Source of the DNA: Candidatus Uhrbacteria bacterium
Lineage (GTDB): Bacteria; Patescibacteriota; Patescibacteriia; 2-12-FULL-60-25
Length of the DNA stretch: 64,000 bases
NCBI GenBank assembly: GCA_016222815.1
Contig: JACRQE010000003.1
Span: forward strand, 1-64,000
Reading direction: 5' to 3'
In this document: piece by piece, positions 47,729 through 53,406 of the stretch
How positions within the stretch are numbered: position 1 is the first letter of the stretch
How the letters are laid out: each line of letters begins with the position of its first letter
Position numbers and translations under genes: made by a program
The notes under the pieces: model-generated
What the model was told of the DNA's origin: nothing
What the model saw: the letters and a program-made list of their open reading frames with translations, nothing else
Databases searched by the model: none

Positions 47729-47959
47729 ATGGTGGCTCGACTGGCTCCGCTGCATCCGACGAAAATCGAGAAGAAGTTGAAACGTTTAGGTTTTTCTTTG
47801 GATCACGTGGATGGCAGTCTGAGATATTTTGTGAGGATTAAAGACGGCAAGACCTGGGTCGTCCAGGTCCATTTTCATCCCGAAGAGAAAGGGCTTGATG
47901 TGATAACGTCTATTTTGAGGACTGGAGGAATCTCACGCGATGAATGGTTGAACGCTTGA
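47729..47959 (+). CDS. hicA: HicA-like protein (possible toxin, active His replaced)
   Basis: This 76-aa dsRBD-like small protein reads LHPTKIEKKLKRLGFSLDHV, GSLRYFVRIKDGKTWVVQVH and LDVITSILRTGGISRDEWLN, matching HicA ('l...l.k.Gf....GSH.........v..H..kel..g....Il...gis..ef'). The catalytic His of GSH is replaced by Leu (GSLRYF), so mRNA-cleaving activity may be lost. The ATG is preferred to a GTG five codons upstream. hsdR starts inside its last codons. Confidence 0.65.
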   Translation: MVARLAPLHPTKIEKKLKRLGFSLDHVDGSLRYFVRIKDGKTWVVQVHFHPEEKGLDVITSILRTGGISRDEWLNA

Positions 47960-50307
47960 CTTGTATGAACGAAGCCGAAACCCGGGCGGAACTGATTGAC
48001 CCTAAACTCAAGGCGAGCGGTTGGGGCGAGGTCGAGGGATCGAAAGTCCTGCGCGAATTCCATATAACCGACGGCAAAATCTTGCCCGGCGGCAAACGTA
48101 GTCCTGCTGAACGGGCGGATTATGTTTTGGTCTACAAAAACCGCAAGATCGGTGTCGTGGAAGCCAAGGCTGACGGCGAGACGGTGGGCGAGGGCGTGGC
48201 GCAGGCCAAAGGTTACGCGCAGAAACTGCGGATCGATTACGCTTACTCGACCAACGGCAAAGGCATCTACGAAATGTCGATGAAGTCCGGCCGCGAAGGG
48301 GATGTTGACCGTTTTCCCACGCCGGATGAATTGTGGAGCAAGACTTTTTCGGACCAAAACGCATGGAAAGATAAATTTGATGCCGTGCCTTTCGAGAGCG
48401 TGGGCGGCACGAAGTCGGCGCGTTATTACCAAGAGATCGCCGTCAACAATACGCTCGACGCCATCGCCGAAGAAAAACAGCGCATCCTGCTGACGCTCGC
48501 GACCGGAACCGGCAAGACGTTCATCGCGTTTCAAATCGCGTGGAAGCTTTTCCAAACACGCTGGAACCTGAAGCGCAACGGCCAGCGCCGCCCGCGCATC
48601 TTGTTCTTGGCCGACAGGAACATCTTGGCCGACCAGGCGTTCAATTCCTTCTCGTCATTCGCGGAGGATGCCTTGGTGCGCATCAATCCTTTGGACATCC
48701 GCAAAAAGGGAGGAGTGCCGAAGAACGGCAGCGTTTTCTTCACCATCTTCCAGACTTTCATGAGCGGCAAGGACAATTCCCCGTATTTCGGCGACTATCC
48801 GCCGGACTTTTTCGATTTCATCGTCATCGACGAGTGTCATCGCGGCGGCGCGAACGACGAAGGCAATTGGCGCGGCATCCTGGAATATTTTTCTCCCGCG
48901 GTCCAACTCGGCTTGACGGCCACGCCGAAACGCAAAGACAACGTGGACACATACCGATATTTCGGCGAACCGGTCTACATTTATTCGTTGAAAGAAGGCG
49001 TGAACGACGGATTCTTGACGCCTTTCAAAGTGAAGCGCATCAAGACGACGCTCGACGATTACGTCTACACGTCAGATGACCAAATCATCGAAGGCGAAGT
49101 GGAAGAGGGGAAAATCTACGAAGAAGCTGATTTCAATAAGATAATCGTTATCAAGGAACGCGAAGCCAAGCGCGTGCGCGTCATGATCGATGACATCAAC
49201 CAACAAGATAAGACAATCGTCTTTTGCGCCACCCAGGACCACGCGGCCGCGGTGCGCGATTTGATCAATCAGTACGCGGAAAGTCGCGACCCGAACTACT
49301 GCGTACGTGTGACCGCGAACGACGGCGCGCGCGGCGAGCAGTTCCTCCGCGAGTTCCAGGATAACGAAAAGACCATCCCGACGATCCTCACGACCTCGCA
49401 GAAACTTTCGACTGGCGTTGATGCACGCAACATCCGCAACATAGTTTTGATGCGTCCGGTCAATTCGATGATTGAGTTCAAGCAAATCATCGGCCGCGGC
49501 ACGCGGCTCTTCGACGGGAAAGAATATTTCACGATCTACGATTTCGTCGATGCCTATCATCATTTTTCCGATCCGGAATGGGACGGCGAGCCAGTGGAAA
49601 TATCGACAGAAAAAGAATCCATATCGAAGCAGAAAGAAGAGAAGGTAAGCAATCCATTCTCGAATCAACCTGAACCGGAAGAGCGGGAAGAACCAAGAAT
49701 AAAACTAAAGATAAAACTGCGTGACGGCAAAGAGCGCGAGATCCAGCACATGATCTCGACGTCATTTTGGAGTGCGGACGGCAAACCGGTTTCCGTCCAG
49801 GAATTCATGGACAATATGTTCGGAGCCATGCCGGAATTCTTCAAGAGTGAGGATGAATTGCGGAAGATTTGGTCGAGTCCGACCACGCGGAAAACTTTCT
49901 TGGATAAGATCGCGGCCATCGGATACGGTCCGGATGAGTTGGAGGTGCTCCAAAAAATGATCGACGCGGAAAACAGCGATTTGTTCGACGTTTTAAGTTA
50001 TGTTTCGTTTTTGACCAAACCGATCTCCCGCTTGGAAAGAGTCGAGCGGTCAAGGGACAGGATTCTTGATGACTTGGACGAAAAACAAAAAGAGTTCTTG
50101 GATTTCGTCTTGTCGAAATACGAAGAAAAGGGCGTAGAGGAGCTGGATGAAGAGAAGCTGCCGATTCTGCTGAATTTGAAATACCAGGCCATTGCCAATG
50201 CGGAACTGTCGCTCGGCGATGTCGAAAAGATCCGCACGCTATTCTTCTCCTTCCAGAAGGATCTTTACGCAAAACATAGCAACACGAAGCGCGAGTTGGT
50301 GCATTGA
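47944..50307 (+). CDS. hsdR: Type I restriction enzyme subunit R
   Basis: This 787-aa protein has an N-terminal nuclease domain (RADYVLVYKNRKIGVVEAKA, PD-(D/E)xK type), helicase motif I LATGTGKTFIAF, motif II VIDECHRGG, motif III LGLTATPKRKD, and motif VI FKQIIGRGTRLFDG. The C-terminal helical part should dock onto M and S. EcoEI/EcoR124-like length. The first ATG lies within the hicA-like gene; MNEAETR seven codons later is an alternative start. Cotranscription with HicBA places restriction under that promoter. Confidence 0.95.
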   Translation: MVERLTCMNEAETRAELIDPKLKASGWGEVEGSKVLREFHITDGKILPGGKRSPAERADYVLVYKNRKIGVVEAKADGETVGEGVAQAKGYAQKLRIDYAYSTNGKGIYEMSMKSGREGDVDRFPTPDELWSKTFSDQNAWKDKFDAVPFESVGGTKSARYYQEIAVNNTLDAIAEEKQRILLTLATGTGKTFIAFQIAWKLFQTRWNLKRNGQRRPRILFLADRNILADQAFNSFSSFAEDALVRINPLDIRKKGGVPKNGSVFFTIFQTFMSGKDNSPYFGDYPPDFFDFIVIDECHRGGANDEGNWRGILEYFSPAVQLGLTATPKRKDNVDTYRYFGEPVYIYSLKEGVNDGFLTPFKVKRIKTTLDDYVYTSDDQIIEGEVEEGKIYEEADFNKIIVIKEREAKRVRVMIDDINQQDKTIVFCATQDHAAAVRDLINQYAESRDPNYCVRVTANDGARGEQFLREFQDNEKTIPTILTTSQKLSTGVDARNIRNIVLMRPVNSMIEFKQIIGRGTRLFDGKEYFTIYDFVDAYHHFSDPEWDGEPVEISTEKESISKQKEEKVSNPFSNQPEPEEREEPRIKLKIKLRDGKEREIQHMISTSFWSADGKPVSVQEFMDNMFGAMPEFFKSEDELRKIWSSPTTRKTFLDKIAAIGYGPDELEVLQKMIDAENSDLFDVLSYVSFLTKPISRLERVERSRDRILDDLDEKQKEFLDFVLSKYEEKGVEELDEEKLPILLNLKYQAIANAELSLGDVEKIRTLFFSFQKDLYAKHSNTKRELVH

Positions 50308-51585: not shown

Positions 51586-52503
51586 TCACGCGTACGCCTG
51601 CATCAGCTTGAAGCTCAAGTCGCGCAGGTATCCGGAACCGGTCCGCTGGTCGCCGCGTTCGAGGTCGCGGGTCAGGAATTCCGGCAGGACTTCGGTCCGA
51701 TGCAATGTCGAGGCTATGCCCCAGGTGACGGCCGCGACCGAGTCCGTGTCGCCACCCAGGAGGATGATGTCTTCCAACATCTCCATGAGCGACAGTTCGC
51801 TGACGACCGTATGGAACACGGCTTGGACTGTCTCGACGGACAACGGCAGTTCTTTTCCCGTGACCGGAGCTTCACACGGTTGGACGATGCGCGCGAGATA
51901 CCCGAGGTCATCCTTGGGCAGGGAACCTCGGAGGAATCCGAGAAGTCCGTTGAAGTTGTTGACGTCCCGGTGCAGGGCATAATGCGCCATGAGCGCCACG
52001 GCCCGCGCCGAGAACAGCGCCGGGGGAGTGTCGTGCGTGATCTTCGCCTGCAAGGTGGCGACCTCGAGCACGTCCTTCACTTCCGGCAGTGCACCGATGG
52101 GCACGGCCCGCATGCAGGCGCCGTTCTTGTCCGAATCGTTGCGGATGCGCGCCAGGAAATCTTCACCGTCGCGCACACTCTCAAGGAACGTTTGGAAATG
52201 TCTGGCATATCCCTTGCGCCGGCCGCCGCGGTTGAACTCGTCAATCCACGCTTGCGCGAACTCGATGGGTTCGTAGGGCGGGGGATGGCTAGTCAGGACG
52301 CGGGCGTTGGCGCACGACATCTCGGTGTCGTCCGTGTACATGCCGGCATATTCCTGATGCGTCGGATGTTTGACGTAATGTCCGAAGTTCAGGACTTCGC
52401 GGAAATGCATGGGGTGCCGCATTTTGTCCACGAATTCAGTTCCCATGGCGCACGCATCAGCCATGCCGATGTAGAGGAGCAGTGACGCGTTCGGGTTCTT
52501 CAT
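51586..52503 (-). CDS. ADP-ribosylglycohydrolase family protein
   Basis: In this 305-aa protein the two metal motifs of the ARH/DraG family are present: GMYTDDTEMSCANARVL (TDDT) and ILLGGDTDSVAAVTWGIAST (GGDTD). They hold the dinuclear Mg2+ site that removes ADP-ribose from proteins or related substrates. An early IGMADACAMGTEFV matches the family's GxxxGDA-like start, with MADACAMG in place of GDAlG. GGAG precedes the ATG. No ADP-ribosyltransferase is seen in the window, so its substrate is unknown. Confidence 0.88.
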   Translation of the reverse strand: MKNPNASLLLYIGMADACAMGTEFVDKMRHPMHFREVLNFGHYVKHPTHQEYAGMYTDDTEMSCANARVLTSHPPPYEPIEFAQAWIDEFNRGGRRKGYARHFQTFLESVRDGEDFLARIRNDSDKNGACMRAVPIGALPEVKDVLEVATLQAKITHDTPPALFSARAVALMAHYALHRDVNNFNGLLGFLRGSLPKDDLGYLARIVQPCEAPVTGKELPLSVETVQAVFHTVVSELSLMEMLEDIILLGGDTDSVAAVTWGIASTLHRTEVLPEFLTRDLERGDQRTGSGYLRDLSFKLMQAYA

Positions 52504-52526: not shown

Positions 52527-52555
52527 AATCTAGCTCCAACCTCTTTTCCGGTCAA
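52527..52555 (-). promoter_or_regulatory. Promoter of the ADP-ribosylglycohydrolase gene
   Basis: On the minus strand TTGACC, a 17-base spacer and TAGATT. A GGGGCGAATCA/TGATTCGCCC palindrome overlaps its outer edge. Confidence 0.75.
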
Positions 52556-52598
52556 GGGGCGAATCATGATTCGCCCTTTCCGCTTCCGATAAAGAATA

Positions 52599-52620
52599 CC
52601 CCGCATCGAGCGATGCGGGG
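52599..52620 (-). terminator. Terminator-like hairpin
   Basis: CCCCGCATCG, AG and CGATGCGGGG. On the minus strand it is followed by TATTCTTTAT; on the plus strand no U-run follows. Confidence 0.5.
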
Positions 52621-52654
52621 CTTCATGAGAGGGTCGGAGATTTCCAGGAAAACG

Positions 52655-52945
52655 GTTGGGCGGCCGGGGGATTGGCCGCTTAACTATTCGACACTGGTCG
52701 TCTCCGTTCAGGGACGCTCTGACTGCGCGTGGGGGGCGTAACCGCAGGCAGAGACCCCTGAATTTGGCGGAGGTCGCGTGACTTTCCGAAGGCGGTGGCG
52801 ATCCATCCTTACATCACGTGACCCCCTAAATTGCGGAGAGTCGATCGGCTGGCTGGGCCGATCGTCCGGAGTGACCGGTTCTGCTGTCTGTGTGTGGTGA
52901 GTTGTTCAACAGGAGGTGCGGTCGACCAAGCCAGACAGCGTTCTC
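52655..52945 (+). ncRNA. Candidate structured RNA, unknown class
   Basis: No ORF fits this stretch. Five helices can be drawn: GCGGCC/GGCCGC; CTCCG-TTCAGGG with CCCTGAA-CGGAG around CTCTG/CAGAG and CTGCG/CGCAG; GGTCGCGTGA/TCACGTGACC with an inner AAGG/CCTT and GTGG/CCAT; CGATCGGC/GCCGATCG; and GCTGTCTG/CAGACAGC. Two pairs are G-U if read on the plus strand but A-C on the minus strand, favouring plus. Against this, a good TTGACA-17-TAGCTT promoter at its right edge points leftward. RNase P, tmRNA and SRP signatures were looked for and not seen. Confidence 0.5.
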
Positions 52946-52958
52946 TCTCCTGATGATT

Positions 52959-52987
52959 AAGCTAACAGGGCTAATTCGTGGTGTCAA
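52959..52987 (-). promoter_or_regulatory. Leftward promoter at the edge of the structured segment
   Basis: On the minus strand TTGACA, a 17-base spacer and TAGCTT. With the hairpin at 52.6 kb it would define a ~350-base leftward transcript. Confidence 0.5.
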
Positions 52988-53028: not shown

Positions 53029-53406
53029 ATGTCATTGCAACGCGTTTTCGAATCCGCCAGAAAGCTCGGTTTGCCCGTTGTGGTCACTGATCCGGCCGGT
53101 CGCGAGCCCATGGTAGTGCTGTCTTTAGAGCAATTTGAGGCCATGGCCGGTTCGACCGAGAACGTCTCGGACGAGCCTCGTTCGACCCTCCCCCCGAAAG
53201 CACCGAAAAACAACCGGAAAGCCCCGGAAACCCTGGTTGAACCCACCCTCACGGACCTGCCGGGCTATGAAAACGGCAATAAATCGTCCGAACAGCGGTC
53301 TGAACCGGTCATGGATGAAATCCAAGTCCAGAACCAGCAGAACCCGGAAATTTCGCTAGATGAACGCTTTTATCTTGAGCCGCTCGAGGATGGGTCGGCT
53401 GGGTAG
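53029..53406 (+). CDS. Phd/YefM-like N-terminal domain protein with disordered tail
   Basis: In this 125-aa protein residues 1-45 (LQRVFESARKLGLPVVVTDP and EPMVVLSLEQFEAMAGS) follow the Phd/YefM antitoxin fold: helix, 'pvvvT..g.p.aVl...efe.l'. The remaining ~80 residues are rich in Pro, Asn, Glu and Ser and look disordered. No toxin gene is adjacent; tuf follows. A single protein of this form may be a DNA-binding regulator rather than half of a toxin pair. The in-frame GTG upstream is rejected since the promoter overlaps it. Confidence 0.65.
   Translation: MSLQRVFESARKLGLPVVVTDPAGREPMVVLSLEQFEAMAGSTENVSDEPRSTLPPKAPKNNRKAPETLVEPTLTDLPGYENGNKSSEQRSEPVMDEIQVQNQQNPEISLDERFYLEPLEDGSAG

Follow-up and report, generated by a model that had tools for sequence, protein, structure and literature searches.

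Does the gene-free DNA between an ADP-ribosylglycohydrolase gene and a divergent small open reading frame (ORF) upstream of tuf in a Candidatus Uhrbacteria genome encode a functional RNA, and if so, on which strand, of which class, and with what action? The locus lies in a 64,000-nt stretch of contig JACRQE010000003.1 (here called the window), which belongs to a genome of ~1.3 Mb in 8 contigs that is 98% complete. This genome, from an ultra-small, uncultured bacterium, is designated G000, and three other species of its genus are designated G001, G002, and G003. A first-pass annotation had described the segment as a structured RNA of ~300 bases and unknown class, with at least five helices. The helices were readily located: inverted repeats are present at 52599-52620, 52635-52647/52694-52706, and 52655-52684, and further ones at 52707-52713/52756-52762, 52842-52864, and 52883-52890/52932-52939. 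The observation held, with a length of ~360 nt in place of ~300. The predicted parts of the RNA and its neighbors are listed in Table 1.

Table 1. Predicted features of the RNA locus and its neighbors (positions in the window)
Feature	Position	Strand	Basis or remark
Whole RNA gene, ~360 nt	52591..52952	-	Fold z -5.3 to -5.4; syntenic homologues in two species
Sigma-70-type promoter of the RNA, TTGACA-17-TAGCTT	52959..52987	-	-35, spacer, and -10 common to three species
P1 5′ strand GGAGAG, Shine-Dalgarno-like	52945..52950	-	Complements 52835-52840; complementary in both homologues too
Variable 5′ domain inside P1	52841..52944	-	~104 nt in the window, ~256 nt in G003, 7-nt loop in G002
P1 3′ strand and linker ACTCTCCGCAATT	52829..52841	-	Best conserved primary sequence
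Hairpin P2 (P2a GGGGGTC/GACCTCC, P2b CGTGAT/GTCACG)	52769..52826	-	Covariance-model alignment
Hairpin P3, C-rich apical loop 52728-52742 GTTACGCCCCCCACG	52707..52762	-	Covariance-model alignment; loops of predicted folds
Hairpin P4, C-rich apical loop 52666-52673 AATCCCCC	52635..52706	-	Homologous in G003; corresponding last hairpin in G002
Intrinsic terminator GCCCCGCATCG-CTCG-ATGCGGGGT + TATTCTTT	52591..52621	-	Terminator scan; same place in both homologues
Promoter of the downstream gene, TTGACC-17-TAGATT, past the RNA terminator	52527..52555	-	Promoter scan
ADP-ribosylglycohydrolase (PF03747), downstream of the RNA	51586..52503	-	Pfam E 5e-33
Small ORF, divergent, upstream of tuf	53029..53406	+	41/41 family genomes; synteny anchor

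To the right of the RNA segment, the small ORF is followed by tuf. Its product is conserved at the start (MSLQR..ESARKLG.P...TDP.GREP.V..LEQFEAM) and at the end (FYLEP) and had no match in Pfam, and a contig search for this ORF yielded no additional genus members. On the other side, a near-perfect palindrome, GGGGCGAATCATGATTCGCCC, was found at 52555-52578, between the RNA terminator and the promoter that serves the downstream gene; its identical core occurs once more on the same contig (C8:78320), similar palindromes occur in a distant class member, G020, and it looks like a REP-like repeat. Also near the RNA segment, a type I restriction enzyme R subunit-like protein (ResIII, EcoEI_R_C, and HSDR_N) is encoded at 47944-50307.

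Promoter and terminator point to transcription from the minus strand. The leftward promoter named by the first-pass annotation is present, reading from 52987 to 52959, and TTGAC(A/T)-17-TAGCNT with an identical 17-nt spacer precedes the RNA both in the window and in its two homologues (3/3 species). Its -10 element agrees with the textbook consensus at 3 of 6 positions and was missed by a standard scan. In both genomes, TTGAC followed by a 17-nt spacer and TA...T outnumbered most of the other spacings tried by a factor of 3-5 (38 versus mostly 6-14). The terminator scan also recovered the leftward terminator-like hairpin, which spans 52621-52598. Accordingly placed, the transcript would begin at CAGGAGAG and end within the terminator T tract. 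Folding of a 401-nt segment gave an MFE of -159.9 for the minus strand (z -5.26; 0/100 dinucleotide-preserving shuffles as low) and of -177.6 for the plus strand (z -3.60 versus shuffles), and the minus strand without the terminator still scored z -4.7. Over the three species that carry the RNA, the z of the RNA strand was -5.4, -3.5, and -7.5. An earlier remark that two pairs were G-U on the plus strand but A-C on the minus strand was not borne out by the covariance model, in which 12 G-U versus 5 A-C cells were counted on the minus strand, a weak strand indicator from a model derived from the minus-strand fold.

A DNA search of relatives detected no more than fragments of the RNA, in G003, where the arrangement is as in the window (small ORF, RNA, terminator, and ADP-ribosylglycohydrolase). 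The G002 copy was found via the small ORF anchor; it shares the promoter and the motif CTCTCCGCAGTTTGGGG and likewise has a terminator. From start to terminator, the RNA measures 364 nt in the window, 519 nt in G003, and 328 nt in G002. A covariance model built from the window copy alone (R1) matched G003 at E 8e-7 and G002 weakly (E 0.09), and among 41 family genomes it matched G000 and G003 only. With the window copy and G003 as training sequences (R2), the syntenic G002 copy scored E 1.2e-4 and was the best non-training match in 37 kb. A third model (R3), run on 41 order-level genomes, gave three matches, that is, 3/4 genus members. Outside the genus, a search of 381 class-level genomes recovered none; it was run with stricter filters and may miss far-diverged relatives. 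One weak match in G004 (E 0.29) falls in what looks like a RecQ-like coding sequence and was discounted, and no match to the RNA was found in phage records. As far as traced in the genomes searched, the RNA is confined to one genus.

All three species share a common architecture: P1 closing the 5′ domain, a near-invariant linker, P2, P3, the last hairpin P4, and the terminator. P1 pairs a 5′ GGAGAG or GGA..GAGG with CTCTCC, and the linker follows the consensus CTCTCCGCA(A/G)T(T/C)T in all of them. The 5′ domain of the window copy contains an anti-Shine-Dalgarno-like CACCTCCT at 52911-52918, and in G002 an additional hairpin separates P3 from P4. Because automatic MAFFT alignments misplaced helices, the sequences were instead aligned by structure with the covariance model. 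In P2, 9/13 pairs were changed on both sides with all cells paired, and in P3, 10/18 pairs were. Over the whole alignment, which comprises three sequences fitted to the model and misplaces P4 of G002, 27/62 pairs were changed on both sides, compared with 0-5 when the partners were slid by 1-3 columns, and 93% of cells were standard pairs. Compensatory changes were strong in P2 and P3, and those of P4 were seen between two species. Since the alignment was model-fitted, the E-values of 8e-7 (R1 to G003) and 1.2e-4 (R2 to G002) constitute the more independent evidence.

Known families did not account for this RNA. When the segment was compared with 4227 Rfam 15 families, none reached the gathering score; there were weak subthreshold matches, the best of them to the terminator hairpin, and both homologues likewise had no match at the gathering score. 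Across the whole window, Rfam detected tRNAs only. The first-pass annotation had found no RNase P, tmRNA, SRP, or 6S signatures in the segment, and rightly so: no covariance model of these matched the locus, and RNase P RNA (RF00010) and tmRNA (RF00023) of G000 reside elsewhere, at C6:23542-24015 on another contig and at C8:158736-159134, respectively. The RNA falls in the size range of these bacterial housekeeping RNAs but differs from them in being restricted to one genus.

Nor was coding potential apparent. No reading frame is common to the homologues, and the differences between G000 and G003 fall in equal measure on each of the three codon phases, giving no codon-phase signal. An 83-codon ORF in the 5′ domain of G003 was discarded as a candidate; it is absent from the window copy and had no Pfam match above the cut-off. 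Likewise, the 5′ AGGAGAG was rejected as a leader-peptide Shine-Dalgarno sequence, with no ATG, GTG, or TTG at a proper distance downstream in the window copy.

Taken together, we are highly confident that the minus strand of 52591-52952 is a real structured RNA gene absent from Rfam 15, and it probably encodes a regulatory RNA that had not been described before. The first-pass annotation was largely right, including its functional RNA of unknown class, which is now backed by a conserved fold with compensatory changes; beyond it go the minus strand, the ~360-nt length, the covarying homologues, the restriction to one genus, and the independence from the ADP-ribosylglycohydrolase gene.

A clue to function comes from the apical loops. 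In all three species, the apical loops of both P3 and P4 are rich in C: GUUACGCCCCCCACG (window), CACCCGCCCCCUCC (G003, as seen in the core fold; the full-length fold is different there), and UACCCCAUCCCCCUC (G002) for P3, and AAUCCCCC (window), CCCC (G003), and AUUCCCC (G002) for P4. The P3 loop has stayed C-rich while the surrounding stems were almost entirely altered. The C content of the RNA is 33-34% throughout, and unpaired C-runs exceed those of shuffled sequences modestly, the observed number being reached by 3/60, 16/60, and 7/60 shuffles. Among possible targets, GGAG precedes the start of ~13-20% of genes and GGGG that of ~8%, figures obtained with a rough start-codon rule that favours such motifs. 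Hfq was detected in 0/41 family genomes, in which the controls were detected.

Several hairpins with C-rich apical loops are a feature of sX13 of Xanthomonas, an Hfq-dispensable small RNA with three stems and apical C-rich loops whose repressed mRNAs bear G-rich motifs close to the start (PMC3771888). The Uhrbacteria RNA resembles sX13 in its several stable stems, its apical C-rich (CCCC) loops, and its separate small gene; it differs in size, since sX13 has 115 nt, whereas the window RNA and its homologues have ~330-520 nt with a variable-length domain enclosed by P1. In Staphylococcus aureus, C-rich unpaired motifs of RNAIII and related C-rich (UCCC) small RNAs pair with ribosome-binding sites. 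RNAIII is similarly long and multi-hairpin with C-rich unpaired motifs, but it belongs to an unrelated organism, no Rfam match to such families was found, and no coding function was seen in the Uhrbacteria RNA.

On these grounds, we tentatively put forward, as a possibility that falls somewhat short of an even chance, a genus-restricted structured small RNA that acts in trans by antisense pairing through C-rich loops and independently of Hfq. In several mRNAs, G-rich motifs close to the start codon would be bound by the exposed CCCC/CCUCC loops through base pairing, which would block ribosome binding. Stems P2-P4 and the terminator would space the loops and shield the RNA. In P1, the 5′ GGAGAG is paired with the conserved CUCUCC; more speculatively, opening of P1 might expose a further anti-Shine-Dalgarno-like strand. 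The antisense mechanism remains a proposal, given the modest excess of C-runs and the small share of genes with G-rich motifs before the start.

The main rival to this mechanism is a minus-strand structured RNA that acts by binding protein or as a scaffold, that is, as a sponge or by binding polymerase or the ribosome, for which we see a real but lesser chance, roughly one in three. A length of ~330-520 nt and the dense structure exceed what a simple antisense RNA needs, structure is kept better than sequence, and the failure to detect Hfq in the family suits a protein-binding role as well. The Uhrbacteria RNA also shares a similar length and many hairpins with CsrB/CsrC; a CsrA sponge would need GGA, however, and none of the apical loops predicted for the window copy contains it. 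The RNA locus also matches none of the 6S, SRP, RNase P, and tmRNA models, and RNase P and tmRNA are placed elsewhere in the genome. Restriction to one genus speaks against a housekeeping role.

Much less probably, the RNA acts in cis as the riboswitch or attenuator leader of the ADP-ribosylglycohydrolase gene, although strand and order are the same in the window and G003 and the structured region ends in a terminator. The segment matched no riboswitch family. The RNA is a free-standing gene and not such a leader, because the downstream gene has its own promoter past the terminator, was not detected in the G002 genome, where RNA and terminator are present, and is kept in G001, from which the RNA is absent.

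It is similarly improbable that the segment has no RNA function and represents either a protein gene in decay or random palindromic DNA between genes. In G001 (C3, L062), a gene for a ~234-codon protein replaces the RNA between the small ORF and ADP-ribosylglycohydrolase, exactly at this position and with a comparable terminator in the same place, and the rapid sequence divergence of the RNA would fit decay. This protein, which had no Pfam match above the cut-off, showed no similarity to any of the three RNA segments, however (best E 0.31 or worse), and the lack of a codon-phase signal, the compensatory changes, the excess stability, and the preservation of promoter and terminator likewise argue against decay. 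Least probable of all, a functional RNA on the plus strand could be claimed from the fact that this strand beats its shuffles too, as any palindromic DNA would, but the minus strand had the better z in 3/3 species, and promoter and terminator both point left, with none found for the plus strand in the segment.

Returning to a minus-strand regulatory RNA, its sequence diverges fast between species, and two further loci outside the genus were recorded. At the same position in G004, which belongs to another genus, the minus strand of L021 (~1190-1425) has a promoter (TTGACG..TACCCT), a stable fold, and a terminator; it contains GGAGAGAAG...ACTCTCCGC, which resembles the P1 motif of the RNA, was not found by the models, and had no Rfam 15 match at the gathering score. 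Upstream of the small ORF in G035, L019 is non-coding and has a terminator and a degenerate tRNA (called as tRNA-Phe, anticodon aaa), and a further tRNA-like pair of widely separated ends was noted by eye. In a reading that we regard as unlikely, the Uhrbacteria RNA would be the first member to be described of a rapidly evolving family of long regulatory RNAs peculiar to these Uhrbacteria, with a fixed P1-P4 frame and an exchangeable 5′ domain, and these unrelated-looking non-coding RNAs, at the same promoter position near tuf, could be far-diverged relatives.

To our knowledge, little is known about the regulatory RNAs of Patescibacteria, and a limited literature search turned up no work on them. 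The RNA is an example of a structured RNA traceable across one genus only, with helix sequences that have turned over almost completely. As a covariation-supported locus in bacteria without detectable Hfq, it offers a test case for antisense control by C-rich loops in ultra-small genomes.
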